From assembly GCA_035236585.1 (NCBI GenBank), contig CP141130.1, positions 80,361,944 to 80,425,943 of the forward strand: a DNA stretch of 64,000 nt, read 5' to 3'. The notes beneath the pieces were generated by a model, which did no database searches, was not told the DNA's origin, and saw nothing but the letters and a program-made list of their open reading frames with translations. Position numbers and translations under genes: made by a program. This DNA comes from Warburgia ugandensis. Its lineage: Eukaryota; Streptophyta; Magnoliopsida; Canellales; Canellaceae. This document shows positions 5,681-54,513 of this stretch, piece after piece; positions within the stretch are counted from its first letter, which is position 1; each line of letters begins with the position of its first letter.

Positions 5681-5878
5681 GTCATCTGCCGTACTACCAA
5701 CCTCCCCTTAAATCTAACTCCTCCATCGGTCCCCTCGAAAAATGTGTCTTATCGCCGATCCTTGTGTTTCCTTGTCTTTTGCCCCGTGCCTCTAAGATCC
5801 CGTCAAAGAACTTAGGCCAGAGTCGTCAAATTGGCAATCATCACACCCGCCTTCTGCTCGGGGCATCTCGCAACGACG

Positions 5879-6200
5879 TTAGCCTTCCCGGGATGGTGCG
5901 TATGGTGAAGTCGAAGTCCTTGAGATACTCCATCCATCCGCCATTTGCCTCATATTCAATTCACTCGAGTAAAGAAGTACTTGAGGCTCTTGTGATCGAG
6001 TGAATACCTCAAATCTCTCACCATAAAGATAATGTCTCCAGGACTTCAACGCAAATACCACGGCCGCTAATTCCAGGTCATGTGTTGGGTAATTTACCTC
6101 ATGTGTCTTCAAAATGCAGACGCATGGCAGGTACCTTCCCATGTTGCATCAACCTTGCTCCTAATCCCTTGCCGGGCGTCACAATAAACTACATAACCGC
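5879..6200 (-). pseudogene. RNase H remnant of the chromovirus
   Basis: Frame 5879-6142 reads THDLELAAVVFALKSWRHYL followed by YGERFEVFT and, after a break, ELNMRQ. This is the Ty3/Gypsy RNase H domain that removes template RNA. Frameshifts disrupt the segment after EVFT, where the catalytic aspartate region is expected. Confidence 0.9.
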
Positions 6201-7318: not shown

Positions 7319-7560
7319 TATTTCTGGTTGCCCGGGTATAAGAAAAGTGACTCGCTTCTTTCGAGTCTACCATAGCACCATAGTTGGCTAACCAATCCAT
7401 CCCAAGAATAACATCATAGTCTACCATGTCTAATAAGATGAAGTCTGTGTCCATACTCACGCCTGATATCTCTACAAGTATATCTCTAATATATTCTGTA
7501 GTCTCTACTGTCTCTCCCACAGGTGTCATAATATCTAATCCAAATGCTAGTTTGTGTACA
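7308..7560 (-). pseudogene. Aspartic protease remnant of the chromovirus
   Basis: The frame 7308-7529 contains DVILGMDWLANYGAMVDSKE, the conserved C-terminal part of plant Ty3/Gypsy proteases. The catalytic D-S/T-G region upstream is not readable in a continuous frame. In an intact element it would cleave the Gag-Pol polyprotein. Confidence 0.85.
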
Positions 7561-7679
7561 CATACATCAAGGCAAGATGCAAAAATACATGATATAAAAG
7601 AATGTGTAGAATACGTGTCAAAAGAACTTTGGCATGTCTATGCGAGGCCCAGAAGAGTACAGCTCTACAACCTGGTGTG

Positions 7680-8853: not shown

Positions 8854-8981
8854 CTATCAAAATTTTACATGTCACTAAGTGTAAGTTCCTCTCTCATCGT
8901 TTCTCTCTCTACAACTATTATGGGTAATTTGTTATTCACATATAAATGGACATTCACAAGGATTATGATGGACTAGACTGG

Positions 8982-8993
8982 GCTCTGATACCA
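8982..8993 (-). other. Primer-binding site (initiator Met tRNA)
   Basis: On the minus strand the sequence is TGGTATCAGAGC, the standard plant LTR-retrotransposon primer site matching the 3' end of initiator methionine tRNA. It lies four bases inside the 5' LTR boundary. Confidence 0.95.
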
Positions 8994-8997
8994 ACTT

Positions 8998-11976
8998 TGT
9001 AACACCCCGGATTTTTAAGACAAATTTTTTTTTTTTTTTTTATAATGGCAATTTAAATAAGAACATTTGGGATCCCATGAGAAAAGATTTATTTAACATT
9101 TTACTAAACCTATCTCAAAAACTCAAGGTGTTAATTTTCCTTTCACAAAATGGCGTACATGTAATTTAAACATAAATAAATAATCCACGTATAAATCAAC
9201 GTCAAATAAATAAGCGCCTTTATTTTAAATCAAATAAACATCCAAAAGACAGTAATAATATGGCCCAGGGTCTATCCATCATAACATCCCATATAAATGT
9301 CCAATATATGTCCAAAGATCTAAATCACATCCAAATATAAAGTATGCAGTCCATAATAAAAATCCAAATGATAATCTGTTTAATGACTCACATCATGCCT
9401 AATACTATAGAAAAATGGTCTTGACTCTCACGGCTTCTCAACACTTGCTTTTCCCGTTATCGCGCTCGAGATCTAAGGCATTGCAAAACAAAGCAATGCC
9501 TCGACAAATATCGCTTGTGTAGGTACATAGACAATTAATGTAATAAATGCAAGAAATAATGAACGACATTGATGAAAAGTCTAACATTTATGGAAATAGT
9601 GATATCATAATGCCATGTTCAAATAAATGCCAATTTATTCCATATGCTAAAACATGAAATTCACGGAGTTAAAACATGACATGAATCAATAAATGGAGCA
9701 TACAACGAGAATAAGGGCACCCTAAGGTAATGGGTCCCACCACATCGCACGAACATCCCACGATCGAGGTACACATAGTCAACCTCCGAGTGTCGTCACA
9801 CCTGTGCATACCATACTATAACAATGCTCATCATACATGCACACATAACAAGAATATGGGCCATCATGCTGCGGTGGCAACCCTCCATGGGTATCAACCA
9901 CCGCCGCTCCCCGTCGACACCATAACGGGAGACTTAGCGTGTCCCCATGGAAAGGCCAGGCCAGGTAGTGTGGACTATCCATGTTACCAAACCCCTACCC
10001 AGAATGCCATCTATGGGCGGTGTCTATCATATCACAAACTCATCACATCATAATCTCGGAAGGTGGGTGGCAGGCCCTATCCCTCCAGCATGACGCCCAT
10101 AGGCGAGAGCACCCGTCATCAAATATAAAACACGGAAATCATATGTATATGCTAAAACTCAAGAGCACTTATAGCTTGCAATCCCCAAGACATGCCCCTC
10201 ATCACGGGGTTAGCCTTTATCAAAGGACCCTAATAAGCCTCTATTCTCATTTCCATGTAAATCCATGCATTTTCTATATATATAATAAGAAATAAGTCTC
10301 TAAGTAAGCATAACAAATTAACATCATGCTTGTAAAAGCATTTGAAATAAGTTTATTCAGTAAAGATTTCAATTTGGAATAACCATCCTCAGACAAATGT
10401 CGCATGAAATCCATGGTAAATAAAAATCGCAATTTAAAACACAATCACACATGATCTTTATGTTTAAACATGGTTTAAAATCAAGTCAAAACATTAGTTG
10501 TCGTCACCTACCTCAGTGTGAGATCACTAGCTTGCTAATAACTCCCTTTAATTGGTATATTCAAGTGCACTGTACATGTCACATTACTATTTTAAAATTT
10601 TTCTAAATAAAAAGTGGTCATTTCTAAGTTTTTAAGTTAAAACTAGTCCGCCGTCGTCAATACGGTCATAACGCCTCTTTCGGATCGTGATTTGGACCTC
10701 TCTAGCTCCCCCAAAAATCAAGTTTTAGTAAAAACTACCCTCAAATGGGGCTGCTTGGGACCACCATAAGGTGGTTTAAAACCGGCGCCCTTTTCCGCCG
10801 GTTTACACCGCGTGCACGGGCGCACGAAGACGACGGCGTCGCGGCGCCGCACGGAGCCGCGCGCGCCGTGCGCACGCCGTGACGCACGCGCGCGTGCGTC
10901 ACGGCCGCCGGGACGCGCCGCGTCCCGGTCCCACCGCGGCAGCCCAACCACGCACGTTCCCGCACGCGCGCGCGCGCCGCGCGCACGCGTGCGGCGACGA
11001 ACGTCATGTGACGTCGTCCCTCGTGCGTCACGGAGTGCGTCTTGGCGTCGGCGCGGGCGCCGACGCCGGAGAAAACGACCGGATTAGGTTCGCCTCGGCT
11101 GAGCTCTGAGCTCCGTTTGCGTGATTTTGCGCCATTTTCTTCAGAATTCTCTCTAGAATCCATTTATGCCCTCCTTTTTCACTAATTTTCTCAAAAACCA
11201 TGGTTTTTAAATGATTTTTCCCAAGTTCCTAAAAACCTCTCTAGTCTTGGTTTTTGAGTTTTCTGAGCAATTCCACCGTTGGATCACTCCCAAATTTAAA
11301 GGGTTTGCTCTTGGGTGTCTTGTGCACTAGTTGGACGGTGCGATTTCCAAACGGACAACGTTTGGTCTATGTAATCACGCTCCAACAGTAGCGTGCACAA
11401 ATCTCCCTAAAATCCAATTTTTTTTCCTAATTTTTAAATGGTTTTCTAATTAATTTTCTAATTAATAAATACGAAAAACATAGGTTTTGAGGCTTACCTT
11501 GCACTGCCGGAGTTGCTCGTGTTGCCGGGGCTCCACTCGCCGGAAAATCCAAGTTTTGCTGTACAGGGTGTTGCGTAATACTCAGGAGAAAACGCTCCAA
11601 GTGGAGCGTTTTGGAACCTGGGGAGGGTAGATATGAGCTGAGTCCCAGGAAGAGAACCTCTTCCATTCACGCCTCTTTCCACGTCTCTCCGGCGATTTTT
11701 CCGGCACCGGTAGAGACGTGTGGAAGACGAAGTGCAGTATCAATTTGGGCCCCTGTGTTACACGTTTCTGTCAAAAGACCATTTTGCCCTTACAACTTTG
11801 ACGGCTCATGACTCCCTCGTTTGAGCTCCGTTTCTCGCGTTCTTGGTGGCGTTGGATTCGTATCGACGAGCACTTTCTAATTATTATGTTTTCAGGAAAT
11901 AATTTCATCCATAAATTTTTATTTTAATTTATTTAATAATTTCTTATTTTTATCTTAAAAAATTAAGGATATTACA
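8998..11976 (-). repeat. Right (5') LTR of the chromovirus
   Basis: 2,979 bp; pair of the LTR at 1328-4355 and ends with the same terminal 10 bases. As the 5' LTR it should carry the element's promoter on the minus strand. The CpG-rich block corresponds to about 10790-11080. ORFs inside (9730-10295, 10718-11163, 11427-11811) are not genes. Confidence 0.95.
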
Positions 11977-14800
11977 TTTCCTAATCCAAGCTTAGGGATT
12001 GGTAATTAAGTACCTGATGTAGCTCAAATCAAACTGAATTGGTCAATCTAGGCTGACAACTTATCTGATGATTTTAGTCATTCGATCTATCACTATTCAT
12101 ACAATGACTTCTTGACGTCTGATCGATGATCAGATGTCATGGATGAGTTATAGAGCATTGAATTAACTAGGATATGGCAAAAAATATATATTAAAAGATC
12201 TAGATGGGAATTGATTGATAATCTGAACTGGCTAATCGAATAGTAAAGGAAGAAGGACCTAGCAATGTCTGATTTGTGATCAGGTGCCACCATTACATCC
12301 TAAACCCAAATTGACATAAGACAAGCTAGGTTTCATTAATCCATTAGCTCAAATGTTTAATAACATAGGGAGATCAAGATTAGACCACTTCTAGCCGTCG
12401 GATCACAAATTTAGGGAATGAACAACAAATCAAGGACGATTTAACACTATTCCTCACTTCTAATCAATGGTCAGTCATTGATGAGCGATAAATTAGAACC
12501 AAAATGGCCTTAGATGATCCTTGATGTGGAAAATGGACTAATTGTCTAGGTAGCTGAGATATATTGAAGATCTAGATATGAAATTGGATCCAATTGGATG
12601 ATCTGAACCGCTTAGAATTCTTAATTGGATTAATTAGTTAGAATTACTAAATTGATATTTAATTTGGGGCGATTAGGTGAGGATCTTTGATAAAATCAGT
12701 GTGGATGCTGATGATCAAGCACAATTGAGGCAATCAATATCAGACACAATTGAGGCAATCAGTGGATGATTTGACCAAGCAAACAACTGAAAGTTGTTCA
12801 AATTGACTGTTCAAGGTAAGATTTCAGTCTTAATTATTTGATGGAGTGATTTGATTTCAATTACATATGATTGAGCATGATATTCATGTAGTAATGCTTA
12901 ATTAATGGATGTAAATGATAAATTACCGAGATTGAAATGATCTGAGCCTAATAGCTCTAAATATGCAATGATATAATTAAGAAGAATAACTAAATGATTA
13001 TGAGTATGCCCGATTAAGTATGATTTGAATTAGTAGTAATTAAGGTTGGTCCCGGCTTGAGATTTTATGGTTGGGAATCATTGAAATATCTTATACACAA
13101 TGTATTGAAAGATGAAAAAGTAATGATTGTGTAATTAAGAATTCAAGTTAGGTGAATTGGATTCTAAGTGTGACTGGATGTGATATGTATCTAGGTGATG
13201 GAACTATGGAGGGCTGCACTAGAGTTGGGTTTGATTGATTCGAGAGGTACAGACGAGTGGTACTTCGTCTGAGGTAGGTGATTACATTTGAGATTTTCCC
13301 ATGATTTCTTAAATCATGGCGTATTATTTGAAACTTTGAGGTGTGGGTTTTATGCTCTACCATGTTTCATGAGATCATTTTTCAGCATGTATTGCCAATA
13401 TGCTTGCTACTTCTTTTGTGCATAATTTATGCACTGTTTCTAATATATTTCAGTCGCATCAATTTGATTATTGAGGAGGTTATACACTAATTTTCAATGC
13501 ATGATGTTGATATATTGAATTACTCTCTCGATTTGGTTTTATCAAGAATGATTATGGATTATCATGTTTTCATGAAAATTCTTTTATTTTACATGGTTGA
13601 TATTATGACATTTGGATCTACATGATTTAGCCTTATATTTTAACATATGACTCATGGTACACTACCATATCTTTGACCGGATCTTATTTAAATTGTTACA
13701 CATGAGAGTTTCTATGCTTTGTCGATCGGGACAATTAAGGTTGTAATGGGATGCATCCCCCCAACCCCCGCCGTGAGTGCCTGAGTGCCTCGTGTGGGTG
13801 AAAAGGTAAAAATGGGATTGGAACGCATCTTTCTGTGAGTGCATGAGTGCGAGTGAAAGGGTGAAAGCGGGATTGGAACACGTCTTTCCGTGAGTGCCTG
13901 AGTGCCCCATCGTGAGTGAAACGAAAAGTACTAAGAGTTAAGCCCACATTGTCGTGAGTATACTTGAGACACTCATAAGGCTTGATTGTGCATGATGTTT
14001 TGTTGATTTTAACAGGCATTATATCATTTTGTAGGCACATGCTTTCATTGTGTCGATGGAAGTATATCCATGTATTTTTCTCATGCTTTGTATGTCATGA
14101 TGCTCAGTATTTGTATTGATTTGTTTAGACCATGATTCTCCTGTATTATTCATCATGGATGTCTGATGTTTTGTGGGCTTTATATGTATTCATCTTATGA
14201 GATTTACCATGATATTGATACTCTATGCTATATGATTTTATTACATTTGTTATTGAATGTGAATCACCTACACAAGCATAGTTTGTTAAGGCATTGCTTT
14301 GTTTGTAATGCCTCAGATATAAAGAGTTACAAAAGGTGGATGCGTTGATAGATAAAACAAAAGTGATGACGGTTCCCAATGAAGCATTGAAGACATTTTA
14401 GAAATGATAATGTACTTTATTATGACTTGATTCTTTTATCCACTATTGGAGTACACATTTTTATTGAAAATTGTGTTTGATTTGGATGGATGGGTGTGGA
14501 GACTAAGTCTCCCATGTATCATGTCTTATACTGTGTTATTAGGTGATTTTTGTATTACACATTTTATGTGCAATGGTCCAAAATACAAAGGAGACTGTCG
14601 GATTTTTAGTAGAAATGAGATTTCATTTCACCATTAAATCCATAGTTTGTGATTATATGACTCCCGAGACTTTAAAATAAATGCTTTTATTCTAGTTTTG
14701 TTTTTGGTTACTTTAAAAGTCAAAGTTTTTAAAATAGGGACCCCGACTATTTTTATAAATTGTTATTATATTGTTGATAAAACCCCGAAGTGCCACACAT

Positions 14801-19411: not shown

Positions 19412-22400
19412 ATGGCGTCGAATCAGGGATTTCTGACTGAAGAGCAGAGGGAGACGTTGAAGATAGCGTCTCAGAATGCGGAAGTTTTGTCCTCGTCTCC
19501 GAAATCGCCGGCATCATTGCTTCAGGATCATCAGATGAAAGTTGTCACAGGCGGAAAGGCTCCGACTGTTGGATTTGCTGTTAGGCACGTCCGCCGATCT
19601 CACTCTGGAAAGCTTGTCCGAGTTAAGAAGGGTAAGTATTTTTTCATTCTTCTTGCTATGGTTGGTGTTCATCTTTTTGCGAGATGATGAAAAACTGCTT
19701 TACCTGCAGTGATTTTTTCATCTACTGTCCTGTCCTCTTTTTATATTTCGTTTGGTAACGAGTTGTTGAAACTCTTAGGGTTTAAGTGTTTTCTGCTTTG
19801 GTTGTAGTCATGCTTTATTGTGGCTCTGGATTGTTTCATTATATCCTTCTGTGCGCTATTGGTTCCAAAGTTTTTTTTGAACTAGTTAGGGATTATCTTT
19901 TTATATGTCGATATTTCGAAATTGTTTATAGCACTCCAAGTTTTGAAGTGTTTGTTCAAAAAGATTCTCTGGATTCCATTATTGTTCTGGATGTAAAGAT
20001 GCTGGAAGTAGGTATTGATGAGAAACTCATATGCAAATTTTTAGTTCTTCGAAGGTAGAACTCTGAAATATCCTCTCTTGGAGTCCCCTTTTGACTCTCA
20101 GATATGGTTCTATTAGGTGCATGAAATATATGATATATGACAACCAAAATGTTCTCCATTAATCTTCTCAAGTGTCTGATGACGATCTACTGCGCATGTC
20201 TCTGCATCTTCTGCTGGGACATGCTTTGCTGATCACGCACATAATATGCTCGAAATATGGCTCAACAGAAGATGCAGAGGTGTTCTTTGACTTATGCTTT
20301 TGTTAGGATCGTTTCCTTGTATCAGAAATCTTAAGGTATTTATCTCCCCCCCTCCCTCTCTCTCTCTCTCTCTCTCTAATTCAACGCTTTATACTTGTAG
20401 TTGAAGCAGCATCTCGAATCGTTCAAAGCAATTCTAGAACCTGTTACCAAAGGAGTTACATTTTTTGTGCAATACTCGTTGTCATCTGTATTCATCCTTT
20501 GACTTTCTCCTCCATAGTGATACTAATATTGGATACTTATTACTTAGCTTCTACGGAAGTGGCAGCCTTTCAGAAACTGTCGATTTGTGCACAATGCTGC
20601 ATCCACTACCTCCTACCAACCATCCTTTGTCGGATTGCAAGTGCCACTAGGAAGTGTTGATGTGAATCCTGAATGCTAGGAGGAAATGATGTTACACTCT
20701 GATAATTCTACTTCCTTTTAAAACAACTTGCTTCAATTTGGACACCTGCTTCCTTTTCAACGTGTTTCTAGTTATGAGGTCCTGGGAAAACATGTTTTCA
20801 ACTTTTAAGATGTCATTTGTTCTGTCCCTCAGTCTCATTATGGTCAAGTTCCAATGCAGATCAGCCACTGCTTCCAAACGATGGACATAAATGCTTGTGG
20901 CTATTATAAGAAGCTTTTTACACATGAGAAAAGAATTATTCCATAATGCTACACAAGCCTTTCTATTTAAAAGTATATGGTGTAGCTGTGAATAACATGC
21001 CTATGAGTTAGCTTTCCGTTTTCAGTTGGTTGGTCATCATTAGGACCAGGATAACATTGCAACTGAAAGGAAAACAATCTTCATGTTGTTTATTACCATC
21101 ATGATTGCTCTTCATTGTTTTTTTGCTGAAGCTACATGTTAGTTACTGTTTTGTGCATCATCCTTTTGTTACAAATTCACCACCAATCACCTTCTTTGTT
21201 TTGAAGTGATATTGGCAGTTTCTTTGGACTATATTATATGTTACTAATTCTACTTCATAAATGTTTTAGATGGTGCTGGTGGCAAAGGCACGTGGGGCAA
21301 ATTACTAGATACCAGTGCTGATTCACGTCTTGATAGGAATGATCCAAACTATGACAGTGGAGAGGTAGTTTCTATTCCTTGCTTGTCAGCTGTTGGCTTA
21401 AAGTGATTTAGTTAAAACATTTATTTCTGTCCACTTTCTTCTCTACTGTTAGCATCAGTTTTATAGACAAAATAGTTGGTTTTGATGGTTGGGAAGTGGA
21501 AACTAAATACTGTTGCTTAAAGATGCTAGAACTCAAAAGACTGAGACCAGGATTCTGAGGTCTACAAGCATTTGCTTATTCCTAGGTCCATCTTAATTAT
21601 TTTAAGTCAATTTTCAAGCAATGGGATTCACAGGTTCCATATGTTTTAAATTCTTTTAAATATTTATTTCTTTATTCTCCTACTATTGCAGGAACCATAT
21701 GAATTAGTAGGTTCTGCAATCTCTTCACCAACCCCTTTTGATGACTACAAAAAGGCTGTGGTTACCATAATTGAAGAATACTTTAGTACAGGTGACGTGG
21801 AAGTAGCTGCTTCAGACCTCAGAGATTTAGGCTCTGATGAGCATCATCACTATTTTGTTAAGAGACTGGTCTCCATGGCAATGGACAGGCATGACAAAGA
21901 GAAGGAAATGGCATCCGTTCTTCTCTCAGCTTTGTATGCTGATGTGATCAGCTCTGACCAGATCAGCCAAGGATTTGTCATGCTTCTTGAGTCTGCTGAT
22001 GATTTGGCACTTGACATACTTGATGCAGTTGACGTCCTAGCTCTGTTTATTGCTCGTGCAGTTGTTGATGACATCCTTCCACCAGCTTTTCTTACTAGAG
22101 CTAAGAAATCACTTAAGGAGCAGTCAAAAGGACTTCAGGTCATACAGACTGCTGAAAAGAGCTACCTATCAGCTCCTCATCATGCAGAGTTTGTGGAGCG
22201 GCGATGGGGTGGCAGCACCCACATCACTGTTGAAGAGGTAAAGAAAAAGATAGCAGATCTATTGAGGGAATATGCCGAGAGTGGAGACACGGCAGAGGCC
22301 TGCAGGTGTATAAGGGAATTAGGGGTCTCTTTCTTCCATCATGAAGTGGTGAAAAGTGCTCTTATCCTTGGCATGGAGATACAAGCAGCCGAGCCACTTG

Positions 22401-23506
22401 TATTGAAATTGTTAAAAGAAGCAGCTGTTGAAGGTCTGATAAGTTCTAGTCAGATGGCAAAAGGGTTTGGTCGTCTTGCTGAAAGACTTGATGATCTCTC
22501 TCTAGATATACCCTCTGCAAAAGAAATGTTTCAATCATTGGTCCCAAAGGCTATCTCAGAAGGATGGTTAGATGCATCATTTTTCAAATCCTCAGGTGGA
22601 GGTGGAGGTGGAGAGTACAGGGATGAAGAGGATGAAAAGATGAAGCGGTATAAGGAAGAGGCTGTAACCATTATTCACGAATACTTCCTTTCAGATGACA
22701 TACCTGAACTCATCCGGAGCCTTGAAGATCTTGCTGCTCCCCAATTCAACCCAGTCTTTCTTAAGAAGTTAATCACCCTTGCCATGGACAGAAAAAACAG
22801 AGAGAAGGAGATGGCATCTGTTCTCCTATCGGCGCTTCATACGGAGATCTTCTCAACTGATGATATCGTGAATGGTTTTGTCATGCTTCTGGAGTCTGCA
22901 GAAGATACGGCTCTTGATATATTGGATGCTTCAAATGAACTTGCTCTCTTTTTAGCCAGGGCAGTGATTGATGATGTCCTTGTTCCCCTAAATTTGGAGG
23001 AAATCAGCAGCAAGCTCCCACCTAATTGCAGTGGTAGTGAGACTGTCCATATGGCTCGGTCACTTCTTGCTGCTCGTCATGCGGGCGAGAGGATTCTGAG
23101 GTGCTGGGGAGGTGGTACTGGTTGGGCAGTGGAAGATGCAAAAGACAAGATAACAAAGCTTTTGGAGGAGTACGAAAGTGGAGGTGTTGTTGGGGAAGCC
23201 TGCCAGTGTATTCGTGAACTTGGGATGCCCTTTTTCAACCATGAGGTAGTTAAGAAAGCGCTGGTTATGGCTATGGAGAAAAAGAATGACAGGATGTTGG
23301 ATCTGTTGCAAGAATGCTTTGGGGAAGGGCTGATTACCATCAACCAAATGACAAAAGGTTTTGCTAGAGTCAGGGATGGGCTTGATGATTTGGCTCTTGA
23401 TATTCCCAATGCTGAGGAGAAATTCATTTCATATGCAGACCACGCCAAGAAGAATGGATGGTTACTGTCATCCTTTGCAGCTTCAGCTCCAGTAGCTGCT
23501 GCCTGA
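19412..23506 (+). CDS. MRF: MA3 domain-containing translation regulatory factor (MRF type, PDCD4-like)
   Basis: Three coding exons: 19412-19631, 21270-21364 and 21692-23506, with GT-AG introns, joining in frame to 709 residues. The N-terminus MASNQGFLTEEQRETLK and the segment RHVRRSHSGK...GAGGKGTWGKLLDT match plant MRF proteins. Four MA3 domains follow at about residues 122-240, 285-400, 425-536 and 585-700. Domains 1/3 and 2/4 are the more alike pairs (for example KEMASVLLSAL in 1 and 3; CIRELG in 2 and 4), so the protein looks like a duplicated two-domain unit joined by a glycine-rich linker (residues 407-412). MA3 domains bind eIF4A; in Arabidopsis MRFs associate with eIF4A and ribosomes and are regulated by TOR/S6K under energy limitation. 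Length is close to known MRFs (about 700). The start is the first ATG in frame giving the conserved N-terminus; the previous in-frame codon is a stop. Confidence 0.95.
20347..20380 (+). repeat. CT microsatellite in MRF intron 1
   Basis: A run of cccctccctctctctctctc within the first coding intron (19632-21269). No other notable structure is seen in this 1.6-kb intron. Confidence 0.9.
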
Positions 23507-25465: not shown

Positions 25466-27700
25466 TGTAGGGGTCGACTACATGAATCTTATTCATTCAT
25501 TTCTCTCTATTAATTACCATGGCTTCATTTAATTCTAAAGTTTTTAAATCTTTTCTCACTATTGATGTCCACGTTCTTTTGGGCCTTCCCCTTATCCTTT
25601 TAGAACCTTCTACTTATATCGCCTCACTCCTTTTAGCCGGTTTCATTTTCGGTCTCTTTTGAACATGTTCAAACCATCTAAGTCTAATATCTCTCATATT
25701 CCTATTGGTGCTATCCCTAAATTTTTTCTAATAATTTCATTCCTTATTCTATCCTTTCTTGTCTTACCACTCATCCATTTCAACATCCTCATTTTTGCAA
25801 CGCTCATCCTATGGGCATAATGTTCCTTAATTGCCCAACACTCTGATCCATAGAGCATGACTGGCCTTGTGGTCATCTGATAGAACTTTTCTTTTAGTTT
25901 AAGTGGTACCCACCGATCACACAAAACTCCAGATACACATCTCCATTTGTTCCAACCTACTTGGATTCTTTGGGTAACCTCCCTCTCAATCTATCCACTC
26001 TCATGAATTATTGATTCTAAGTACCGAAAGTGGTCTTTTTCGGGGACTTCTTGGTTATCAATCTTGACTAGTGTTCCATTCCTACTCCTCTCCTTACTAA
26101 AATTGCATTATATATATTCTGTCTTAGTTCAACTAATTTTAAATAATTTAGATTCTAATGCTTCTCTCTATAACTATAGCTTTATGTTTATACCCTCTCT
26201 TGCCTCATCAAGTAAGACTATATCATTTGCAAATAGCATGTACCAAGGAATCTCCTTGTGCAAATATTTTGTTAACTCATCCATAATCAATGTGAAAAGG
26301 TATAGGTTCAATGCAGATCCTTAGTGTGATCCTATAGTGATAGGAAAATCACTGGTCTCGTCACTAGTGGTCTTAACATTTGTTACTGCTCCTTCATACA
26401 TATATTTAATTATATCTATATATCCCCGCAAAACCCCTTACTCGCCCAACAACTTCCATATTTACTCTCTAAGGACTATATCATAAGCTTTCTCTAAGTC
26501 GACAAAGATCATATTGAGGTCTTTCTTCCACTCCCTATATTTCTCTACCAATTGTCTTAGTAAGAAAATAGCTTCAATAGTAGACCTCTCAAGTATGAAA
26601 CCAAACTGTTTTTCTGATACACTTGTCTCATATCGTAACCTCTTCTCAATCAGTCTTTCAAAAAGTTTCACAGCATGGCTCATAAGTTTAATCCCTCGAT
26701 AATTAGTGCAGCTCTTTATGTCTCCTTTATTCTTATCAATTTGTACAATAGAGTTTTTCTCCACTCATCAGGCATTTTCTTTGATTTTATAATCTTATTA
26801 AACAACGTTATCAACTAAACTATCATAATCTCTTATATGCTTTCAAACCTCTATTGGTATACCATCGTCCCCAATGGCCTTTCTTGATTTAATCTTTTTA
26901 AAAGCCTCTTTCACTTCAGGTATTCTAATCCTACATTCATATATATAATATCCAATATTAGTTAGATTTATAGTATTTTCAATCCCTATATTCTCAAAGC
27001 CAATTTCATTTAACAATTTTTGAAAGTACATTTTCCACCTTTGTTTGATCTCATCATCTTTGACTAACATCCTTTGATCATCACTTCTAATGCACCTAAC
27101 ATGATCTAAGTCCTTAGCATTCTGTCCTCTTACTTTTGCAAGTTTAAACACATCTTTCTCACCTTCTATTGTCCCTAGGCTATTATAGAGTTCATGATAT
27201 TTTTTAAGTTTAGCCTCACTTACTATTCTCTTAGCAACCTTTTTAGCATTCTTATATTGTTCATAATTTTCATTATTTCTAGTCTTTTGCAATGCTTTAA
27301 AATATATCTATTTTTCTTTAATAACTTTTTGCACTCTTTCACTCTACCACCATGTTTCATTTATTAATTGTCTTTTACCTTTAAATATACTCTTAAGACA
27401 TCTTTTACTACTTTCTTAATGGACTCAGCAATATTAATCCACATGGTATTTACTTCTGTTTCATAGATTCAATTTCCTTCTACCATGACCTTATTTGTAA
27501 ATAAGGTTATTTTCTCCTTTTAAGTTCCATCACTTAGTTTTTGAATACTATTAAGTTCATTTCCTTTATTCCATCTTTTGATATGGATATCCATAACCAT
27601 TAACCTATGTTGTGAGATTAAACTCTCACTGGATATCGCCTTACAATCCTTACACATTGTTCGTTTAGTATTCCTAAATAGAAAAAAGTCTATTTGGCTT
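25465..27700 (-). mobile_element. RTE-like LINE copy 1, 5'-truncated and degenerate
   Basis: Read on the minus strand from 27700 downwards it gives, in order: the end of an endonuclease domain (SQIDFFLFRNTKR near 27690), a linker (frame 26843-27292, with RIPEVKEAFKKIKSRKAIG and DDGIP), reverse transcriptase (frame 26462-26764, with NYRGIKLMSHAVKLFERLIE and MIFVDLEKAYD), and the C-terminal region (frame 25694-25924, with MLYGSECWAIKEHYAHRMSV). This is the order and wording of plant RTE-type LINEs. Frameshifts and stops between the pieces rule out activity. The 5' end with most of the endonuclease is missing. Confidence 0.9.
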
Positions 27701-40900: not shown

Positions 40901-43900
40901 GGGGCAGCCCCGGTGCACGAAGCTCCCGCTTATGCGGGGTCCGGGGAAGAGGCGGACCACAAGGGCCTATAGTAGGCAGCCTTACCTTGCATTTTTTGCA
41001 AGAGACTGTTTCCACGCCTTGAACCGGTGACCTCAAGCCATGGATGAAATATGCCTGGCATTATTCTTAGTGGGCCTAATTAGCCCCAAATTAAGTTAAA
41101 TTGTAGCATGCCTAAATTGTTAAATTGGACCTACTAATAATGCTAATGGGCCTAATCAGCCCCAAACTCTGGATGAAATAATGCCTACTTAAAATTGCAG
41201 TGAGCATAATTAATCCTAAAACTAGATAAACTCTAGCAGACCTAATTGTTAAATTGGACTACTAAAAATGCTAATAGGCCAAATTAGTCCCAAATTTTGG
41301 ATGAAATAACACTTACTAATAATTATAGTGAGCCTAATTAATCCCAAAACTAGTTAAACCTGTCATTTTAAGCAGATTGGTTGAGCTATACCATTCATCT
41401 AATACATTGGAGACAGGATATAAGTAAACCGAAAAATAAGCAGACTGGTTGATTCTAGCATCTCATGAACTGCAATTTTTATCTTTTTCATGGATGCTTA
41501 GAAACCATATACAAGCAATAGATCACATTTGAAAACTAATTTTTCGGTACTTGAGTCACTGCATTGGTAAGATTTTTGGCTTATGGATATCAACTTTCAG
41601 AAGCATACCCCATTGCATATAAAAAATCAGCAATAAGATTATCCATGGATGATGATCTAGTCCCTTGCTAGTGCATGTGGCAGCATTCAAAAATAGAGAA
41701 AACAGTGCTAAAGCCTTGGACTGGTTGTTCCTAACCAATCTTAGCAGTATAGGCTGTCAAGAACAGGGTACCAGACTTACTTATTCATTGACAATACTAT
41801 CCACGTTGGGTTGTTGATAAATGAACGCCCTTTCCTTTTATATTCCCTGAACAGTACTTGAATCCAATGAATCAAATGTTTAGAACTGTCAGAGAGATAC
41901 CAAATCTTGTGCAGCACTTGGAAATACTGGATCCTACTTGTGCACAATCAAATGTGTAGGACAATTATTATATCAAGATCTACATTTTGGATTATTCGAA
42001 ATACTGGGCCCTGCTTGTGTTTTTCTTACTGAAATTTTCCAGCCAAATATGGAATTGATATTTTCCAACCAAGCGAAGTGGGCGGGTATAGGTTTATTTT
42101 TTGTGTCGTGTCAAGAGAGAGAAAAGGGTCTCAAATCGTCAAAATCCATAAAACCATGTGTCCACGTGGACAATGTAATGTCCAAAACTGGCCCATTTTC
42201 ACCTATGTTTTTAATTTTTTTCTTTTCATGGACATTCATAGTGAGGATGTCTAGACATTGATGCATACCATTGACTAACATGGAAATTCTTTGTCTAATA
42301 CCAACATCCTAAACCACTAACAGGGAGGTTTGACAGAATATTGGGATACTGATTTATTAACATGAGTTTTCTGATTGTCCATGGACATTGGCCTGGACAA
42401 TGTAATACCCCAATCCACTAAGACCCTGGTAGGTTTTTAAGAGTTACAGCAATGAAAAACAGAAATCCAGCGGGACAGTGTAAACAGAATAGGAGCATTC
42501 ATTATTTACTGAATAAGATGAGCTCCAAGTATTCCCAGAACATAACAACAGAGCAACAAAATCCTAAGCAAGCTTTTCTAATGAACACAGAGGTCCAGGC
42601 AATTCCACCAGAATAACTTAAAAATTGTAATGCAACTTAAATCTAAATCATAGTATTATCACCTGCCAATGGGTTTACACCAGCTAATTTGTACAAGCGA
42701 GCAGTTTCAAGTTGTATTCTCTCCTGCAAAGGGATATAAACGGTTCATTGTCAGCTATCAGCAACAGAAAGTTATCAAATGAAATGTCTTGAATATTGAC
42801 TGAGTAAAATTTAGGGACCCGAGAATGGCTCTTTCATTCATAGATGGTGGACATGTAATTTCCCTCCAAGATATTCATATTCAGGATAACGCCAATTTAG
42901 TTGCACAATATTAAAGAGTCATTCATCCCAAGAAGAAGTCATAATTTAAGAGCTTTTAAAAAATGTGTGCTCTCCTATTCAACTCTCTGGTAGAAATTAA
43001 CAGTGCACTAGTTCTAACTTTTTGTAGTTTGCAAAAGAGAAACATTTGAAATCTCAAACCATGACTCAGCAGACCATTGAAGAGTTGATAAATGGATGGC
43101 TGAAACAATGGCAGGACAAACAGTACATGCATGGGTAGACAAATAGATAGATGAAATATACAATAAACACTTGCTAATTTATCTGCCACTAAACTATCAA
43201 TAGTATGTGACAGCATAACACAATAACCATAAGTTTGGTAAAATCTAGGCCTTTAATATCTTAAAATAGCATACAAAATAAAACTCCAAGGTTACAATGG
43301 CAAGTTTTGAACATTTTGACCTGTTATCATCAGTAGGGGCGGCAAAATATGACACGACACGATAACACGACACGAACCCGACACGAATTTAGCGGGTTCG
43401 GGTTGAGTCTTATCGTGTTCGTGTCATTTTCGGGTTACCCAAAAATGACACGCCAAAAATCGTGTCGTGTTCGAGTCAATCAATTTGACCCGTCGTGTCG
43501 ACCTGTTTGACACGCGACCTATTTACTCATCACCTTGACATGATTCTAACCTATGGAATGGTTGAAAATATAGGACGGTTCTTGAGGAACCGTCTTATAT
43601 TACTCATGTAATATAGGACGGTTCTTCAAGAACCGTCCTATATTGCGAGTTATATAGGACGGTTCCAGAATAACCGTCCTATATTGCTAGTTATATAGGA
43701 CGGTTCCTGAAGAACCGTCCTATATTGCGAGTTATATAGGACGGTTCCAGAATAACCGTCCTATATTGCTAGTTATATAGGACGGTTCCTGAAGAACCGT
43801 CCTATATTGCTAGTTATATATGACGGTTCTTCAAGAACCGTCCTATATTACTAAAAATTAGCTAAAAATCATTAATACATGAAGATTCAAGCATGAGTAG

Positions 43901-46900
43901 GCTATATATGTGGATAAGAATAGGTATTAACTAATAAATATAAAAAATAACAAAATTTTCCTAATTTTCGTAACTTATTTTTTTTGAAAAATTTAAAAAA
44001 AAAACTAAATTACAAAAAAAAAAGAGATGAAAACATTATCACACATGAATACACAACATGGAAAAGCTCTATATGTGGATAGAAATACTTTTCAATGAAG
44101 AAATATGAAAAAACAACGACTTTTTTTAAAATTTTCGTAATCGATTTTTTCAAAAAACAAGTAGAAACCTAAAAACAAACTCAAATCTAGAGCAAAGAAA
44201 TATAAAACTCAAATGGAATGCTTCTCATACACATAGAACTAAAACCCATCAAGATCTATGAAAAATAGTTAACGAAAAACAAAAAAATAAATGCAGATTA
44301 TAAAATTTGTAAATACATACCTTTTTTGCTTAAATCATGAAAGATCGAAGAGGAATGGTCGTTTTCACCTTCTCAGACTAAAACCCATCAAGATCTATGG
44401 AAAATAGTTAACAAAAAACAAAAAAATTGAAAAAAAGGGTACTGGCTTTTATGTTTTTTATAGAAGCGTATCTGATTGTAAAATTCGTAAATGCATACCT
44501 TATTTTGCTTAGATCCGTGAAACATCGAAGAGGAATGGTCATTTTCACTTTCGCAGTAGTTTGGACCGTTGGAAGATTGAAAATTTGAAATTAGGGTTGA
44601 TCAAGGTGAAAAATGATATATAGAACAATATATGACGGTTTTTAAATAACCGTCCTATAATATATATAATGAAATATATGATGATTTTTTTTATAACCGT
44701 CCTATAAGTTATATAGGATGGTTATTTTATTTATTATAAAGTTATAAGACGGTTGTTAACATGTTGTTGCATAACCGTCATATAAACTATAAGAGTTATG
44801 TATTTAATTAATCTTAGTTGAGGATGTATTTAAATAAAAATAATTATTAAGTATAGAGTAAAGAGTAAAGAGTAAAGAAAGAGTTATGTAATTAACTCAT
44901 CTTAATTTTCTGAAGGATGAGCTTCAAAAGATAGAGCATATATGTAATTAACTCATCTCAATTGAGTATCAACTTAAAAACAAAGTTATGTAAATAACTC
45001 ATACTGTCATACTCAATTCAATAGTTGTTGAGGTTGAGGATGAGTAAAGTAAGTGTTATGTATTTAACTCATCTGATCTCAGTTGAGGATCAGCTTAAAA
45101 AAGCAAAGTTATGTAAGTAACTCATACTCAATTCAAAAGTTGTTGAGATAAGTAAAGAAAGAGTCATGTAATTAACTCATTAGGTAAGAATGGTGAATGA
45201 GAATAGAAACAATTATGTAATTAACTTAGTAGCTTGAGAGTTGAGAATGAGTATAGAAAGAGTTATGTAATTATCTCATTGGTGGATAATGAGTATAGGA
45301 AGGGTCCGAAGGGAATAGTTATTAGTTATGTAATTAACTCATTAGGTGAGGTAAGAATGAGATAAGAGAATAGGAGTTATGTGTTGAATTAACACAAATG
45401 TTGAATGATATTACTAAGGGAGTTACTAAATTTTACTCTACATGAATGATGGATCAATGGATTATGGATGAATGAGTTATTCCTAATATATTATCATCAA
45501 TTGGGAGCTAGAAATGAGAAACAAATATTGACTTATATGAGTTGGATACATGATATTCATGAATTTGATTAAAAAGAGATATATTAGATCAATTGGTGAT
45601 GACATGTGAAATTAACATAAGAAAATAATTAGCATTTATAATTTTATACAATATTTGTCAGTTAGTTAGTCTCTCACTTTACTTGTCCTTGTACAAGTTA
45701 CAAAACTTGGTTAACTAATTTTGTACTAAGTGTGACTTGTAAGTTTGTAATTGATAATGTGTAACTAATCTTAAAATGTTTTATAAGAAAATTAGAGGCA
45801 GGTGTATAGGTATAGCTAAGTCTTAGGTTATAACTTATAGTTATAGCAAATAATCGACCGAGCGGGGGGCTTTAGCTTAAGACTTCTAATTCAATTGGAT
45901 AATTGGATTTGAGCTTACTTACTTACATACAAAAAGACAAAACAATTGCCTTGAGAATTAGTATATAAAGAGTTATGTAATTATCTCATTGGTGGATAAT
46001 GAGTATATGAAGGGAATAGTTATTAGCTATGTAATTAATTCATTATTTGAGGTGAGAATGAGGTCAGAGAATATGAGTTATGTATTGAATTAACATAAAA
46101 GCTTATCAAGAGAGAATTAGAAGGATATTGATATGATAACTTTGGTGAAACTAAAATTAATTATGAATTGTAGCCTATACTATATAGTGAAAATTGAAAA
46201 GAAGTGGCATTGAGGGTAAAATGAATAATAATCATGAGAGAAAAAACACATGTTAAATGATATTACTAAGGGAGTTACTAAATTTTACTCTGCATGAATG
46301 ATGGATCATGGATGAATGAGTTATTCCTAATCTATTATCATCAATTAGGAGTTAGAAAAGAGAAACAAATATTGAGTTATATAAGTTAGATACATGATAT
46401 TCATGAATTTGATGAAAAAGAGATATATTAGATCAATTGGTGATGACATGTGAAATTAACATAAGAAAATCATTAGTATTTATAAATTTATACAATATAT
46501 GATAGTTAGTTAGTCTCTCACTTCACTTGTACTTGTACAAGTTACAAAACTTGGTTAACTAATTTTGTACTAAGTGTAACTTGTAAGTTTGTAACTGACA
46601 ATGTGTAGCTAATTTTAAAATGTTTGATAAGAAAATTAGAGACAGTGTGTACGTTAGCTAAGTCTTAGGTTATAACTTATAGTTATAGGCTTATAGCAAA
46701 CAACCACCAGCTAGGCTAGGGTGCTTTAGCAGCTTAGCTTTAGCATAAGACTTCAAATTTAATTGGATAATTGGATATGGGAATTGGGCTTACTTACATA
46801 CAAAAAGACAAAACAATTGTCTTAGACTAGATTGACTTTGTAGACCTAGATAATTATTAATTAGTTAAACCTTTATGTTTTCAGTTTTCATTTTGTTTTC

Positions 46901-49900
46901 CCGCCACTACAAGGGGGGCCCACACGTCGGATCTAACATTAAGGACTCAAAATATTTGACAAATGATTGAAGTGTAAGTTTCATTAACTCTAGTTGCCAC
47001 TTGCCAGTTTGGAATTGGAGGAAAGAAAACTATCTGTCCCTGTCAGGCAGGTCGGCGCCAAGGCTAGGCCGTTTGCCGACATAGGCAGACTGGTCACTGG
47101 AAGTCTGACACATCACAGTCACGCTCATAGATTGGTAAAGTACTAATAAACCATATCCATATGTGTAAAAATAGGACGGTTAGTCGTTAACCGTCCTATA
47201 AAACATAGCATATAGGACGGTTATGACATAACCGTCCTATAAAACATAACATATAGGACGGTTATTTCACAACCGTCCTATAAAACCCATAACATATAGG
47301 ACGGTTCTGATATAACCGTCCTATAAAACATAACATATAGGACGGTTATTTCACAACCGTCCTATAAAACATAACATATAGGACGGTTATTTCACAACCG
47401 TCCTATAAAACCCATAACATATAGGACGGTTCTGATTTAACCGTCCTATAAAAACATAACATATAGGACGGTTATTTCACAACCGTCCTATAAAACCCAT
47501 AACATATAGGACGGTTGTGAAATAACCGTCCTATGTTTTGTGGTTGGTTTGGCTCCATTCACTTGGGAGCAGTTTTTTTACTAAGTCGTAATAGGGAAAT
47601 CAAGTCGTTTCATGTCGTGCCGTATATCCAACACAACTCAGTCAATTAATCGTGTTACACAGGTCGTGTCGTGTTATTTTTTTAAGAATCGGGTCGTGTA
47701 CGAGTCATAGGTTTTTGACACGACTATTAATCGTGTCGTGTTCGTGTTGACCCATAACTCTAATCGTGTCGTGTTCGTGTCGCCACAAACACGACCCGCC
47801 AACCCGAATTGCCACCCCTAATCATCAGGTACTTTTCCATGTTTGAACCTAGAGTTTCTATTTATTGCATCAAGTGCAATCTGATTGATTTTTGAAAATC
47901 AAATGCAATCTCCAAGTTCTCTCAAGTGTCAAATTTGTATGCTGCCAAAGATGAAGATTTTGCTTATTGTATCCAAGGCCTGAATCAGAAAAGCACGTCA
48001 GAGGTTTTATCCCAAGAACATTGTCCTGGAATATGCTCAGTCTAAAACAGACTCCACTAGAAAGTTAATCATAACTGTGCCTGATTTACAATCAAGAGTT
48101 TCTCAACTAAAAAATTCATGAAACCAGACCAAGCTCTGGAAACTTGAATCACCAATCAGAAGCAAATTAAAGGCAACAGGGGAATGGATGGAGCAGTGCT
48201 TAAATAAGTCGGTCTTCCCCTCTTCCACGTGCATAAGAAAAAGGAACACTATCTTCTTCTATAACCAAGAAGTCCAAGCCAGAGCTTCATGGTGAAGAAC
48301 CAAATGAACTCAGTCCCCATTTAGGCTAGAAATTTTCAAATCTATATCAAACAACTGTCACATTATCAGGATCTGTTCCTTCTTCATTCCTAGATTAGCA
48401 TTATAACAACAGAGAAAATATATGATGATAAAATCATTCTAGCTTGAACTTGCCTGATGTAGGACAAACAATCTCCACCACTAACGGACGAACCTAGAAT
48501 CTTCTCCTCAAGACATACTTCCATTCTACTATCAAGAACTTACAGATGCAACCAGTTGTACAAGAAACTTACTAGGAAACCAGAAAAACAGAATCATGAT
48601 ATGCAAGCTACAAGGCATCAAATGCCTGGTATATTCTTAACATCATATAAAAAAACTGGCTTCTCACCTGAAAATCCCAAGAGTACATAACATCAGATCA
48701 ATTTACCACTGAAAACTTAATTTAGCCTAACCAATCCTAGCCCTTGATCCAGCAGTCCAGAAAGATCTTTTTGACAAGAACAGGAGTCTACATTTCCTAT
48801 TCTTGGGACCAAGCATTTTTTCATACGGATTCTCAAAGGCATAAAATACAGAGAAAATCCTTTATCAATTCTTTAAGAAGTATAAAATAGTATACTCCCT
48901 AACTAGAATCAATTACTGACTTACTAAGATACATAAAGTCATACACCCTTTAAGAACACCAAACAGGATATTACTTACAACTGCTTTCACTAGGATCTAG
49001 CATTAACAATGGGAATCGAGAAACTAGGATAGCCTTTGGTGACACAACTTGGCATTGTTTCATGAAAGAAACAGAAAGGCAATGCCGTGATGATTACAGC
49101 AGAATCGCGAAACAGATCTTAAAGATATCATCTTTTAATTGTGATTGCAGAGAGAGAATGCTCGAAAAGTAAGTCTTGCTCAACCTGAACAATCTAGTGC
49201 CAAGGCTTGCTGCAACATAGTCAAGGTGAACAAATCATCCCCTTTACTGCTAAAACAGTATTTGGATATGGCAAAGAAGGCCATACTCCAAATACTATTT
49301 CAATCTGGATTGAAATAGTCTCATTAACCAAGACAACAATGTAGATTGTCAGCACAGCCTACCGACATAACTGAAATCTAACACAACTTCCAAATAGCAG
49401 AAAGTAGCTAACTAGCTACTTCCATGATGCTTTCTCTTCCTCTTTTGAGATTGGGAAAAAATGTATAAACAGAAATATGAATAGAACGACTACAGGCCTT
49501 GCAAAAAACAGAAAGGTCTCAGACACTCGGGGACAGCATCCTGTAAAGCAATTAGAACCAGTAAGCTTCAACTATTTAAATGCGAATAGCATCTTCCTTT
49601 TTCCTGTGGGAGATACGATCACATTATCCTCATCTTGGAACTCTGTTTCGACCATCATGCATGATGAATAGAAGCATTTGTCTCTCAAACCCATTTTAAG
49701 TAGTTATGTAGGTATCTAACAGCATTAATGTTGCCCTTCACATGCAAGTAAAGAAAGATACAAAAAACAGCAAGTAAGAGTACCTGATCTCCAGCATAGC
49801 GCTGTTGGATTGCCTTTATTTGGGGCTGTAAAGCTCGCATTGCCATTGCAGATTCAACCTGAAATGTCTAACTTTCAGCAACAAGTTTGATAGATAAGGA

Positions 49901-53994: not shown

Positions 53995-54513
53995 TAGGCC
54001 TGGCAATTCGGGTTGACGGGTTGTGTTTGTGACATGTCGAGACCAACCTATTATAGTATATGGGTTGACACGAACACGACCCACTTAATAATCGTGTCAA
54101 AAACCCATGACTCGAACATGACACGATTATTAAACGAGTTGACATGACACGACTTGTCTAACATAATTAAATAAATATAAAATAACTAATATATGACAGT
54201 TTCAGGAGAACCGTTAGTTTCAGACGAACTGTCCTATATTATAGTAATTTATATAGGACGATTTCTGATGAACCGACCTATATTTTCAACCTGATTAGTT
54301 AACAGCTTGCGGGTTAAATGGGTCAACACGATGAATTAATAGGTTACGTGTCAAACAAGTCAACACGACGGGTCAACATTGATTGACCCAAACACGACAC
54401 GATTTTTTGCGTGTCATTTTTGGGTTGATTCGAAAATGATACGAACACGATAAGACTCGACCCTAACCTACTAAATTCGTGTTATCATGTCATGTCATAT
54501 TTTGCTACCCCTA
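53995..54513. mobile_element. 519-bp hAT MITE related to the element in ALB4 intron 3
   Basis: Left end TAGGCCTGGCAATTCGGG and inverted right end TAGGGGTAGCAAAATATGAC correspond to the right and left ends of the 4.5-kb element, so this copy lies in reverse orientation. Both about 200-bp subtermini are homologous, and between them are only about two eroded hairpin units (54190-54290). The duplication ACTAATGA is at 54514-54521 on the right and 53975-53982 on the left, with 12 extra bases between the left duplication and the TIR. Confidence 0.85.

Follow-up and report, generated by a model that had tools for sequence, protein, structure and literature searches.

Within an intron of an ALB4-like gene, the 64,000-nucleotide stretch of Warburgia ugandensis DNA analysed here (the window) carries a hAT-type element of 4,487 bp with an array of palindromic units near each end. 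To judge from its alignment to longer relatives, this element is a non-autonomous internal-deletion derivative of a large hAT family, lacking both of the genes that the long members carry. The palindromes of this two-gene family probably serve as sites for a protein that the element itself encodes.

The window element and its palindromic units

The element is framed by a perfect 8-bp duplication (Table 1), and both arms are dense in ACACG/CGTGT repeats: 12 lie in the 233 bp of the left arm, a density of 51.5 per kb where the window as a whole has 1.3 per kb, and 12 were counted in 292 bp on the right (47536-47827). A profile search found neither of the hAT transposase domains PF14372 and PF05699 in the window copy. 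The patches of its central region are collinear with the long relatives E1-E4, matching 9772-12356 in E1; on this alignment, the region is the residue after both genes were lost. The host exons were placed by peptide anchors, in part presumed from ALB3/ALB4, and the PF02096 exon pieces in the window score under the curated cut-off. Provided that the anchors are complete, the flanking minus-strand exons place the element in intron 3, where an earlier sequence-only reading of this DNA had put it; that reading had also described a hAT element with hairpin units near both ends, and the 8/8 duplication and the seven plus nine units seen here bear it out.

Table 1. Features of the window, with positions counted from its first letter
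Feature	Position	Strand	Remark
hAT-type element	43334..47820		starts with TAGGGGCGGCAA, stops with TTGCCACCCCTA
Target site duplication, 8 bp, left copy ATCATCAG	43326..43333	.	same letters as 47821-47828
Target site duplication, 8 bp, right copy ATCATCAG	47821..47828	.	8/8 match to left copy
Left hAT arm: TIR TAGGGGCGGCAA and subterminal ACACG/CGTGT repeats	43334..43566	+	relatives have the same arm
Left array, 7 palindromic units, spacing 43,41,41,41,41,41	43570..43846	.	unit pattern
Central region	44284..46913	.	aligns in patches to intergenic region of long relatives E1-E4
Decayed central array of units	44627..44790	.	unit pattern and alignment; counterpart in central array of long relatives
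Right array, 9 perfect palindromic units, spacing 41-43	47171..47534	.	unit pattern
Right hAT arm, terminates in TTGCCACCCCTA	47536..47820	+	arm sequence, ACACG/CGTGT repeats
ALB4-like exon preceding element, third exon anchor	49784..49858	-	peptide anchor
ALB4-like exon following element, fourth exon anchor	42661..42723	-	peptide anchor
Short decayed family copy, 519 bp	53995..54513	-	arm and unit match

Each unit has the form ATAGGACGGTT-N7-AACCGTCCTAT. The seven and nine units do share an arm, as had been claimed, and this arm (ATAGGACGGTT/AACCGTCCTAT) is 11 bp long, one base longer than had been given. Units are spaced 41-43 bp apart overall (means 41.3 bp left, 41.9 bp right), and 14 of the 16 are perfect over their 22 arm bases, the remaining two having one mismatch each. 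At up to 3 mismatches the window contains 18 unit matches (the two arrays account for 16, the central block and the short copy for one each), and dinucleotide shuffles of it (n=100) contain none. The short copy, its left arm 80% and its right arm 79% identical to those of the window element, has two units within 6 mismatches (the better at 2) with a third, broken unit between them, in the same place as in the large element; its flanks TCATTAGT/TCATCACC agree at 5/8 positions. Neither this copy nor the decayed central array was part of the earlier finding.

The consensus units of the left and right arrays are identical at 22/22 arm bases versus 6/19 bases of the loop and spacer (Fisher p 1.5e-6), or 8/19 with one array inverted (p 2.4e-5), in keeping with the sequence-only claim that the arm is kept while loops and spacers vary. 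Spacer identity is 31% in parallel and 48% in antiparallel, with shuffled spacers at 25 +/- 10%, so a weak relationship between the two arrays, as inverted repeats, is possible. All 32 arm CpGs are retained, though CpG is depleted in the middle of the element (0.47 observed/expected). The likeness of the arms could also come from tandem duplication and concerted evolution. Were the units a selfish minisatellite, homogenised by slippage and conversion with no protein bound, one might expect the two- and three-unit blocks that recur within the arrays, and the right-array loop that is the exact reverse complement of another (chance about 1.3%). Homogenisation should, however, preserve spacers and loops too, and the left and right arrays share mostly their arms; moreover, arrays stand at the same four places in 4/4 long elements. 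We hold such an origin to be highly improbable.

Could the arrays act as RNA? Read-through hairpins would then be diced to small RNAs that control the family, and predicted folding is strong (z -23.7 with the left array folded as DNA and -21.2 with the right array folded as RNA). The layout resembles plant hairpin-chain miRNA precursors in Rfam, all under their gathering scores: MIR1319 (71.1 bits, gathering 116.6), which has a CGGTT/AACCG core, MIR4374 (60.9, 105) and MIR6136 (39.5, 99), which has GACGGTT/AACCGTC. A commentary on the Tam3 stabiliser loci NSt/OSt describes hAT copies, including one inside an intron 3, that have dsRNA-capable end motifs and yield small RNAs from the transposase-motif end (PMC12449043); those are rearranged copies, whereas the arrays here, known from sequence alone, are inherent to the family. 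Against an RNA role, such repeats fold well anyway and also match unrelated models, for example mir-299 and mir-640, and no window sequence attains an Rfam gathering score, which rules out membership in a miRNA-precursor family. Arm-pair changes across elements are one-sided in 204 cells and compensated in 2, in a set whose arm conservation is partly built in because its units were picked by likeness to the arm. This imbalance fits a constraint on a DNA site rather than on RNA pairing. Hairpin folding may be a by-product and not the reason for conservation, and control of the family by small RNAs from the arrays is distinctly unlikely.

The hAT family and its long members

In the window's own 1.12-Gb genome the unit pattern has 4,717 matches, and the reversed control has none. 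The 16 stretches among the matches listed have the same hAT arms in 16/16 cases and a CACTA end in 0/16, and the genome contains no exact CACTACNAGAA-GACGGTT pair; because of this, the unit arrays belong to the hAT family. None of the 16 elements lacks a unit when up to 6 mismatches in 22 are allowed. Hairpin-free hAT copies, which the sequence-only reading had named as evidence against itself, thus did not appear, in a sample chosen by units except for the window's short copy and a second copy in L027 (best unit at 3 mismatches); given this sampling, copies without units may exist as a class. Duplications match at 8/8 in 10 of the elements, 7/8 in two, 6/8 in one, 5/8 in one and 1/8 in two (L022 and L029, retained in all counts), with unpaired surplus arm pieces in L029 and L033 left out of the element counts. 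Of the 16 elements, which share a short TIR, 10 start exactly with TAGGGG(C/T)GGCAA and 14 terminate in TTGCCANNCCTA. Prokaryote or viral relatives are ruled out: the unit pattern occurs in seven prokaryote stretches and in no viral contig, a looser two-site pattern occurs in four viral stretches, each of these stretches has a single unit, and the hAT-arm pattern has no match in the search of these contigs.

Four relatives of 12.9-16.6 kb each have an 8/8 duplication, CCCAACAC, CATTTGGT, CAGTTCAT and TTGAGGGC, and since these differ the whole unit moved. Each carries a hAT transposase gene in its right half and, read divergently from the opposite strand, a second gene in its left half, here gene b; the landmarks found have identical order and orientation in 4/4. 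The four array clusters of each long element lie inside each hAT arm and on both sides of the central region, so that each gene is bracketed by arrays. The transposase has PF14372 and PF05699 above cut-off in 4/4 and, in E1, a zf-BED match of 18.4 bits, just under the cut-off of 20.6.

Gene b matches Peptidase_C48 at 25.8 bits (cut-off 20.7). Its best relative, P0001 (E 9.8e-23), is collinear over both halves and has Transposase_24 and Peptidase_C48, an order that some CACTA elements reportedly show in their ORF2 (PMC8978399, excerpt). Transposase_24 is assigned to gene b solely through this relative; the first half has no Pfam match, whole or frame by frame, and single-frame Pfam scans of the gene found nothing. 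Neither gene has a long open frame in E1-E4 (longest 235 aa), a measure that lumps introns with decay. Gene b is common: of 3,629 candidates, 150 were scored and all are 83-100% identical. Four further copies (C14, C10, C2, C12) have left-arm sequence 3.5-4.2 kb downstream in 4/4; the left-arm end is present in three, and the C2 copy has arm bases 121-198 only. The C48 motif is found in 0/30 of the stretches L040-L069, a count that carries no information because they end before its place in E1-E4. In an exon unused for copy choice, pN/pS is 0.745, compared with 0.83-0.97 in the controls, and an in-frame stop interrupts 9 of 29 distinct copies; selection on gene b is weak in these copies.

The likeness to CACTA elements

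The sequence-only reading had likened the hairpins to CACTA subtermini, and the likeness now extends further, as the long relatives also have a gene related to CACTA-ORF2-type proteins. Are the arrays a separate CACTA element? The motif CACTA[CG][AT]AGAA is absent from all 16 unit-bearing stretches, and nowhere in the genome does an exact match place CACTACNAGAA within 30 bp of GACGGTT, although the CACTA transposase PF02992 is common (150 of 5,074 candidates scored). The array borders of the window element show no CACTA-like end (4-6 mismatches of 11-12); a few 11-12-mers elsewhere in the element differ from a CACTA end at 2 positions. Of the matches listed for C1, C3 and C12 (40 to gene b, 34 to PF02992), no gene-b match lies closer than 124 kb to a PF02992 match. 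Transposase_21 was not found in the E3 frames scanned, a set without stretches such as L033:9001-10000 minus, and E1, E2 and E4 were scanned solely around the transposase. Nor is there a 3-bp CACTA duplication: the hAT ends have 8-bp ones, and the array borders offer no CACTA end. The marks of a hAT element are present, namely an 8-bp duplication, a shared short TIR and, in long relatives, transposase domains. A separate CACTA insert as the present structure is ruled out by the hAT arms in 16/16, the CACTA ends in 0/16 and the 124-kb distance, which upholds the earlier attribution of the arrays to the hAT element.

As a past origin of the interior, a CACTA insertion is possible: the arrays and gene b would be the relic of a CACTA element inserted into the hAT, its ends since lost. 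The Transposase_24-Peptidase_C48 order (PMC8978399, excerpt), the stem-loop chains described in CACTA subtermini (PMC2613891, excerpt) and the two-mismatch 11-12-mers would suit such a history. The missing ends and CACTACNAGAA-GACGGTT pairs, the distance between gene b and PF02992, the E3 frames and the likewise array-bracketed transposase gene speak against it, and we consider it unlikely.

Candidate binding proteins and what they would mean

The sequence-only reading had taken the units for protein-site repeats, and as far as the letters tell they resemble such repeats near both ends. Under the favoured reading of a two-gene hAT family, the palindromes are putative sites, in double-stranded DNA, for a dimeric protein that the element encodes. 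Bound at the end arrays, this protein would help to pair the transposon ends for excision, which the hAT transposase itself would perform from the TIR and the ACACG repeats; bound at the central arrays, the same protein would control the promoters of both genes. The window copy could be mobilised in trans, since its end sites are retained. The two candidates for the binder are the transposase, through its BED domains, and the gene-b protein, in a role like that of TnpA/TNP1 in CACTA elements; in our view the gene-b protein is slightly more likely. In the CACTA element Tgmt*, 12 + 2 subterminal stem-loops are proposed TNPA-like sites (PMC2613891, excerpt).

Rather doubtful is the alternative that the units are sites of the hAT transposase itself, bound by BED dimers, with gene b a captured passenger without an array role. 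Precedents exist in Hermes, whose two BED domains cooperatively bind a quasi-palindromic subterminal repeat pair (PMC10368747, excerpt), and in Ac, whose transposase cooperatively binds AAACGG repeats (PMC3260210, excerpt); the near-threshold zf-BED match in E1 and the weak purifying selection on gene b point the same way. However, the dense ACACG/CGTGT repeats in the outer 230-290 bp of the arms could be the transposase site, and gene b, with at least 150 scored copies, keeps its position and orientation in 4/4 long elements. A bolder form of the favoured reading is more tentative: a modular hybrid in which hAT excision and gene expression depend on the CACTA-ORF2-type protein and its palindromic arrays. 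Non-autonomous copies, the ALB4 one included, would then keep their arrays because both proteins are needed in trans.

Like Ac/Ds, Tam3 and Hermes, the family has TAGGGG..CCTA-type TIRs, 8-bp duplications and subterminal repeats, and the transposase of its long members has a hAT-like RNase-H and Dimer_Tnp_hAT. hAT elements usually measure 2.5-5 kb and have one gene. Unlike them, this family has relatives of 12.9-16.6 kb, a CACTA-ORF2-like second gene on the opposite strand and four palindrome arrays with 11-bp arms; the grapevine Hatvine families reach a maximum of 5.5, presumably kb (PMC2528002, excerpt). Like Ds, it has deletion derivatives (PMC3260210, excerpt). With CACTA elements (En/Spm, Tam1, Tgmt*) it shares stem-loop chains near the ends (PMC2613891, excerpt) and probably a Transposase_24-Peptidase_C48-type gene (PMC8978399, excerpt), Transposase_24 here via P0001; unlike them, it has a hAT transposase and 8-bp rather than 3-bp duplications, and CACTA ends and Transposase_21 were not found. 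Our literature search found no hAT element with such arrays and did not pair hAT with Transposase_24 or C48.

From its sequence, the family seems to blend two transposon systems, because a hAT transposase is joined by a helper-like gene such as has been reported from CACTA elements and by arrays near ends and genes. The usual view takes a transposon superfamily as a closed set, with its own enzyme, ends and accessory factors. A hAT family that combines palindromic units by the thousand with a CACTA-type gene would point to independent movement of the accessory module; if so, the accessory-protein module of CACTA elements could be shared between transposase superfamilies. The function of Transposase_24-C48 proteins would become directly testable, because the predicted binding site is defined to the base. 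Hairpin chains in plant introns, and perhaps those in annotated miRNA precursors, can be transposon ends and call for caution.

Unit arrays inside the arms of the window element

The hAT-type copy in the window carries two chains of palindromic units, in which 11-bp arms, ATAGGACGGTT/AACCGTCCTAT, enclose 7-nt loops and recur every 41-43 bp. Fourteen of the 16 units are perfect, and the unit pattern matches 18 times in the window versus none in 100 shuffles. The sequence-only reading had proposed seven and nine hairpin units with one common arm, hAT ends with an 8-bp duplication and a position in ALB4 intron 3. All three hold: ATCATCAG flanks both ends, and minus-strand exons of the ALB4-like gene lie on either side of the element; counted by exon anchors, the intron between them is intron 3 (the PF02096 exon pieces score below cut-off). 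Each array sits directly inside an outer hAT arm rich in ACACG/CGTGT, with 12 copies per 233 bp on the left (51.5 per kb) and 12 per 292 bp counted on the right (41.1 per kb), against a background of 0.3 per kb in the element middle and 1.3 per kb across the window. The interior shows no visible coding capacity, its longest open stretch being 70 aa, and no Pfam family scores above cut-off there in six frames.

Feature coordinates (window positions unless a contig or E1 is named) and Pfam scores (hAT-like_RNase-H / Dimer_Tnp_hAT, bits)
Feature	Location	Strand	Details
Window element	43334-47820		target duplication ATCATCAG
Left array	43570-43846		seven units
Right array	47171-47534		nine units
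Third unit block	44627-44790		decayed
ALB4-like exons	49858-49784 and 42723-42661	minus
Short relative	53995-54513	minus	519 bp
E1, long relative	C1:62707-79347		duplication 8/8; 77.4 / 38.7
E2, long relative	C1:1001370-1014279		duplication 8/8; 67.2 / 28.8
E3, long relative	C1:7118717-7131991		duplication 8/8; 33.1 / 66.1
E4, long relative	C1:812221-828615		duplication 8/8; 72.2 / 77.1
Interior patch	44284-44904		E1 9772-10539
Interior patch	44791-45598		E1 10695-11516
Interior patch	46788-47324		E1 11796-12356
Direct duplication within window element	45391-45952 and 46243-46823		86% identical
Second small palindromic repeat	44881-45123		GAGTTA-TGTAAT-TAACTC type; 3 near-exact copies, further degenerate ones
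Retrotransposon polyprotein-like open frames	5321-7637	minus	by eye
LINE reverse transcriptase-like open frames	26462-27307	minus	by eye
Plant MA3/PDCD4-type-like open frame	21650-23506		618 aa; by eye

The view that the arm is conserved and the remainder free is borne out by the consensus units of the left and right arrays, which agree at 22/22 arm bases versus 6/19 loop and spacer bases (p 1.5e-6; 8/19 with one array inverted, p 2.4e-5). All 32 arm CpGs in these arrays are intact amid CpG-depleted surroundings. Sixteen elements supplied 171 units with a 7-nt loop, detected by arm likeness and so biased towards conserved arms; 1,669 of their arm-pair cells show no change, 204 have a one-sided change, 2 are compensated and 6 are changed on both sides and unpaired. 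So few compensated changes would not be expected if pairing were the conserved property, despite the detection bias. Folding is strong in both arrays (z -23.7 and -21.2), which any repeat of this kind would show. In the last unit (47506-47534) the loop is GTGAAAT, the exact reverse complement of the ATTTCAC loop found in four further units of the right array, as though it had flipped between its arms (chance about 1.3%).

Long relatives with two genes

Four long relatives in the same genome, E1-E4, carry 8/8 duplications of differing sequence, which suggests that each moved as one unit. In their right half a hAT transposase reads left to right, with both domains above cut-off in all four and a BED zinc finger in E1 scoring just below it. 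The left half holds a second gene, gene b, on the opposite strand; both genes diverge from the central region, and the landmarks found of both keep the same order and orientation in 4/4. Unit clusters number four per relative, one inside each arm and one on either side of the central region. Of the autonomous partner with the same subterminal arm that the sequence-only reading suggested looking for, E1-E4 show the hAT transposase homology and the units, but no intact gene was found in them.

Scanned frame by frame in E3, gene b gave no Pfam match, and Transposase_21 was not seen in the E3 frames scanned. Once its exon-like pieces were joined by hand, the second half matched Peptidase_C48 (25.8 bits, cut-off 20.7) and the first half no Pfam family. 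A protein search of a 5.8-billion database, in which 7,997 candidates were scored, yielded three relatives; at the top stands a 796-aa protein of Phlomoides rotata (E 9.8e-23), collinear with both halves and carrying Transposase_24 (31.9 bits, cut-off 28.7) and Peptidase_C48 (30.1 bits). Purifying selection is only weakly visible in the substitution ratios: pN/pS is 0.745 in a gene-b exon unused in copy choice (shifted-frame controls 0.972 and 0.836, antisense 0.831; in-frame stop in 9/29 distinct copies), 0.595 in the exon used for choosing copies (controls 0.972, 0.936, 1.078) and 0.744 across four copies of a transposase segment (controls 0.966, 0.885, 1.000).

Patches of the window element's interior match the central region of E1-E4 in collinear order, and this interior has no counterpart of the E1 gene-b landmarks (2.3-5.8 kb) or transposase landmarks (13.5-13.9 kb). 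With ordered central patches present and both gene stretches absent, the window element is best read as an internal-deletion derivative that retained both sets of end sites, much as Ds-del stands to Ac. Window 44238-44560 is a repeated leader-like sequence that looks, on the minus strand, like the end of an exon with GTATGTATT after it. Related stretches recur several times in E1, 5' of gene b at 8688-9866.

The family across the genome and the CACTA alternative

The unit pattern has 4,717 forward matches in the genome and 0 in the reversed control. The element sample was selected by units: the first places listed, 16 stretches within the initial 7.7 Mb of contig C1, were all taken, and the window and four gene-b flanks were added. 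The 16 stretches and four gap pieces resolve to 14 elements, or 16 once the window's own two are counted, whose target duplications are 8/8 in ten, 7/8 in two, 6/8 and 5/8 in one each and 1/8 in two. Lengths fall into short (0.5-1.5 kb), middle (3.5-5.3 kb, including the window element) and long (12.9-16.6 kb) classes. Short forms tend towards GGCCTA or AGCCTA ends, long and middle ones towards CCCCTA; these are perhaps subfamilies. At L027:1959-3583, in one fetched stretch, two consecutive short copies have near-identical 8-bp flanks (CTTTACGC/CTTCACGC) and may stem from a tandem duplication.

Could the arrays be a separate CACTA element inserted into the hAT? In the CACTA element Tgmt*, stem-loop arrays have been proposed as sites for TNPA-like proteins (PMC2613891). 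A left or right hAT arm adjoins the units in 16/16 sampled stretches, however, and 0/16 show a CACTA end matching the search pattern; as a present structure this alternative, which the sequence-only reading had named as one possible refutation, was rejected. Genome-wide, no exact pairing of CACTACNAGAA with GACGGTT at up to 30 bp occurs (reversed control 1; variants such as CACTAGTAGAA fall outside this pattern). The short copy in the window, 80% identical to the left and 79% to the right arm of the window element and with flanks agreeing at 5/8 bases, has decayed units at the matching place and the same arm-to-first-unit join, GGTTGAAAATATAGG; this shared layout also argues against a separate insert.

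One exon of gene b (150 scored of 3,629 candidates) occurs on 14/14 contigs at 83-100% identity, and in four short flank stretches taken at the predicted distance, on C14, C10, C2 and C12, left-arm sequence lies 3.5-4.2 kb away in 4/4 and a CACTA end in 0/4. Three include the arm end, the C2 stretch only arm bases 121-198. Although the genome is rich in CACTA transposase genes (150 scored of 5,074 candidates), the listed places on C1, C3 and C12 include no gene-b/Transposase_21 pair closer than 124 kb.

Small RNAs and candidate binding proteins

Parts of the arrays resemble, below gathering score, the hairpin-chain miRNA precursors MIR1319, MIR4374 and MIR6136. In these Rfam models short hairpins seem to follow one another in chains (spacing about 42-44 nt in MIR1319), and the models may themselves be transposon site arrays. 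A small-RNA sequencing paper (PMC3433442) lists miR6136 sequences from Panax ginseng that contain GACGGTT and AACCGTC. According to a commentary (PMC12449043), Tam3 stabiliser loci, one of them in a host-gene intron 3, act via small RNAs from an end bearing transposase motifs. Silencing is a plausible by-product of the arrays.

The hAT family has two layered repeat systems: the outer arm carries the ACACG repeats, and the palindrome lies inside the arm and around the centre. TnpA of Spm acts at element ends in synapsis and in gene control. The simplest reading gives each protein one site type: the transposase would occupy the outer ACACG repeats and TIR, and the gene-b protein the palindromes, helping synapsis at the ends and, at the central sites, controlling both genes in the manner of TnpA. 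Among hAT elements, palindromic subterminal sites bound by BED-domain pairs have been shown for Hermes (PMC10368747) and cooperatively bound AAACGG arrays for Ac (PMC3260210), and an ORF2 with Transposase_24 followed by Peptidase_C48 is described for some CACTA elements (PMC8978399). This hAT family with gene b has conserved site arrays; protein binding to the palindromes is inferred, with the gene-b protein a slightly likelier candidate than the BED domains of the transposase.
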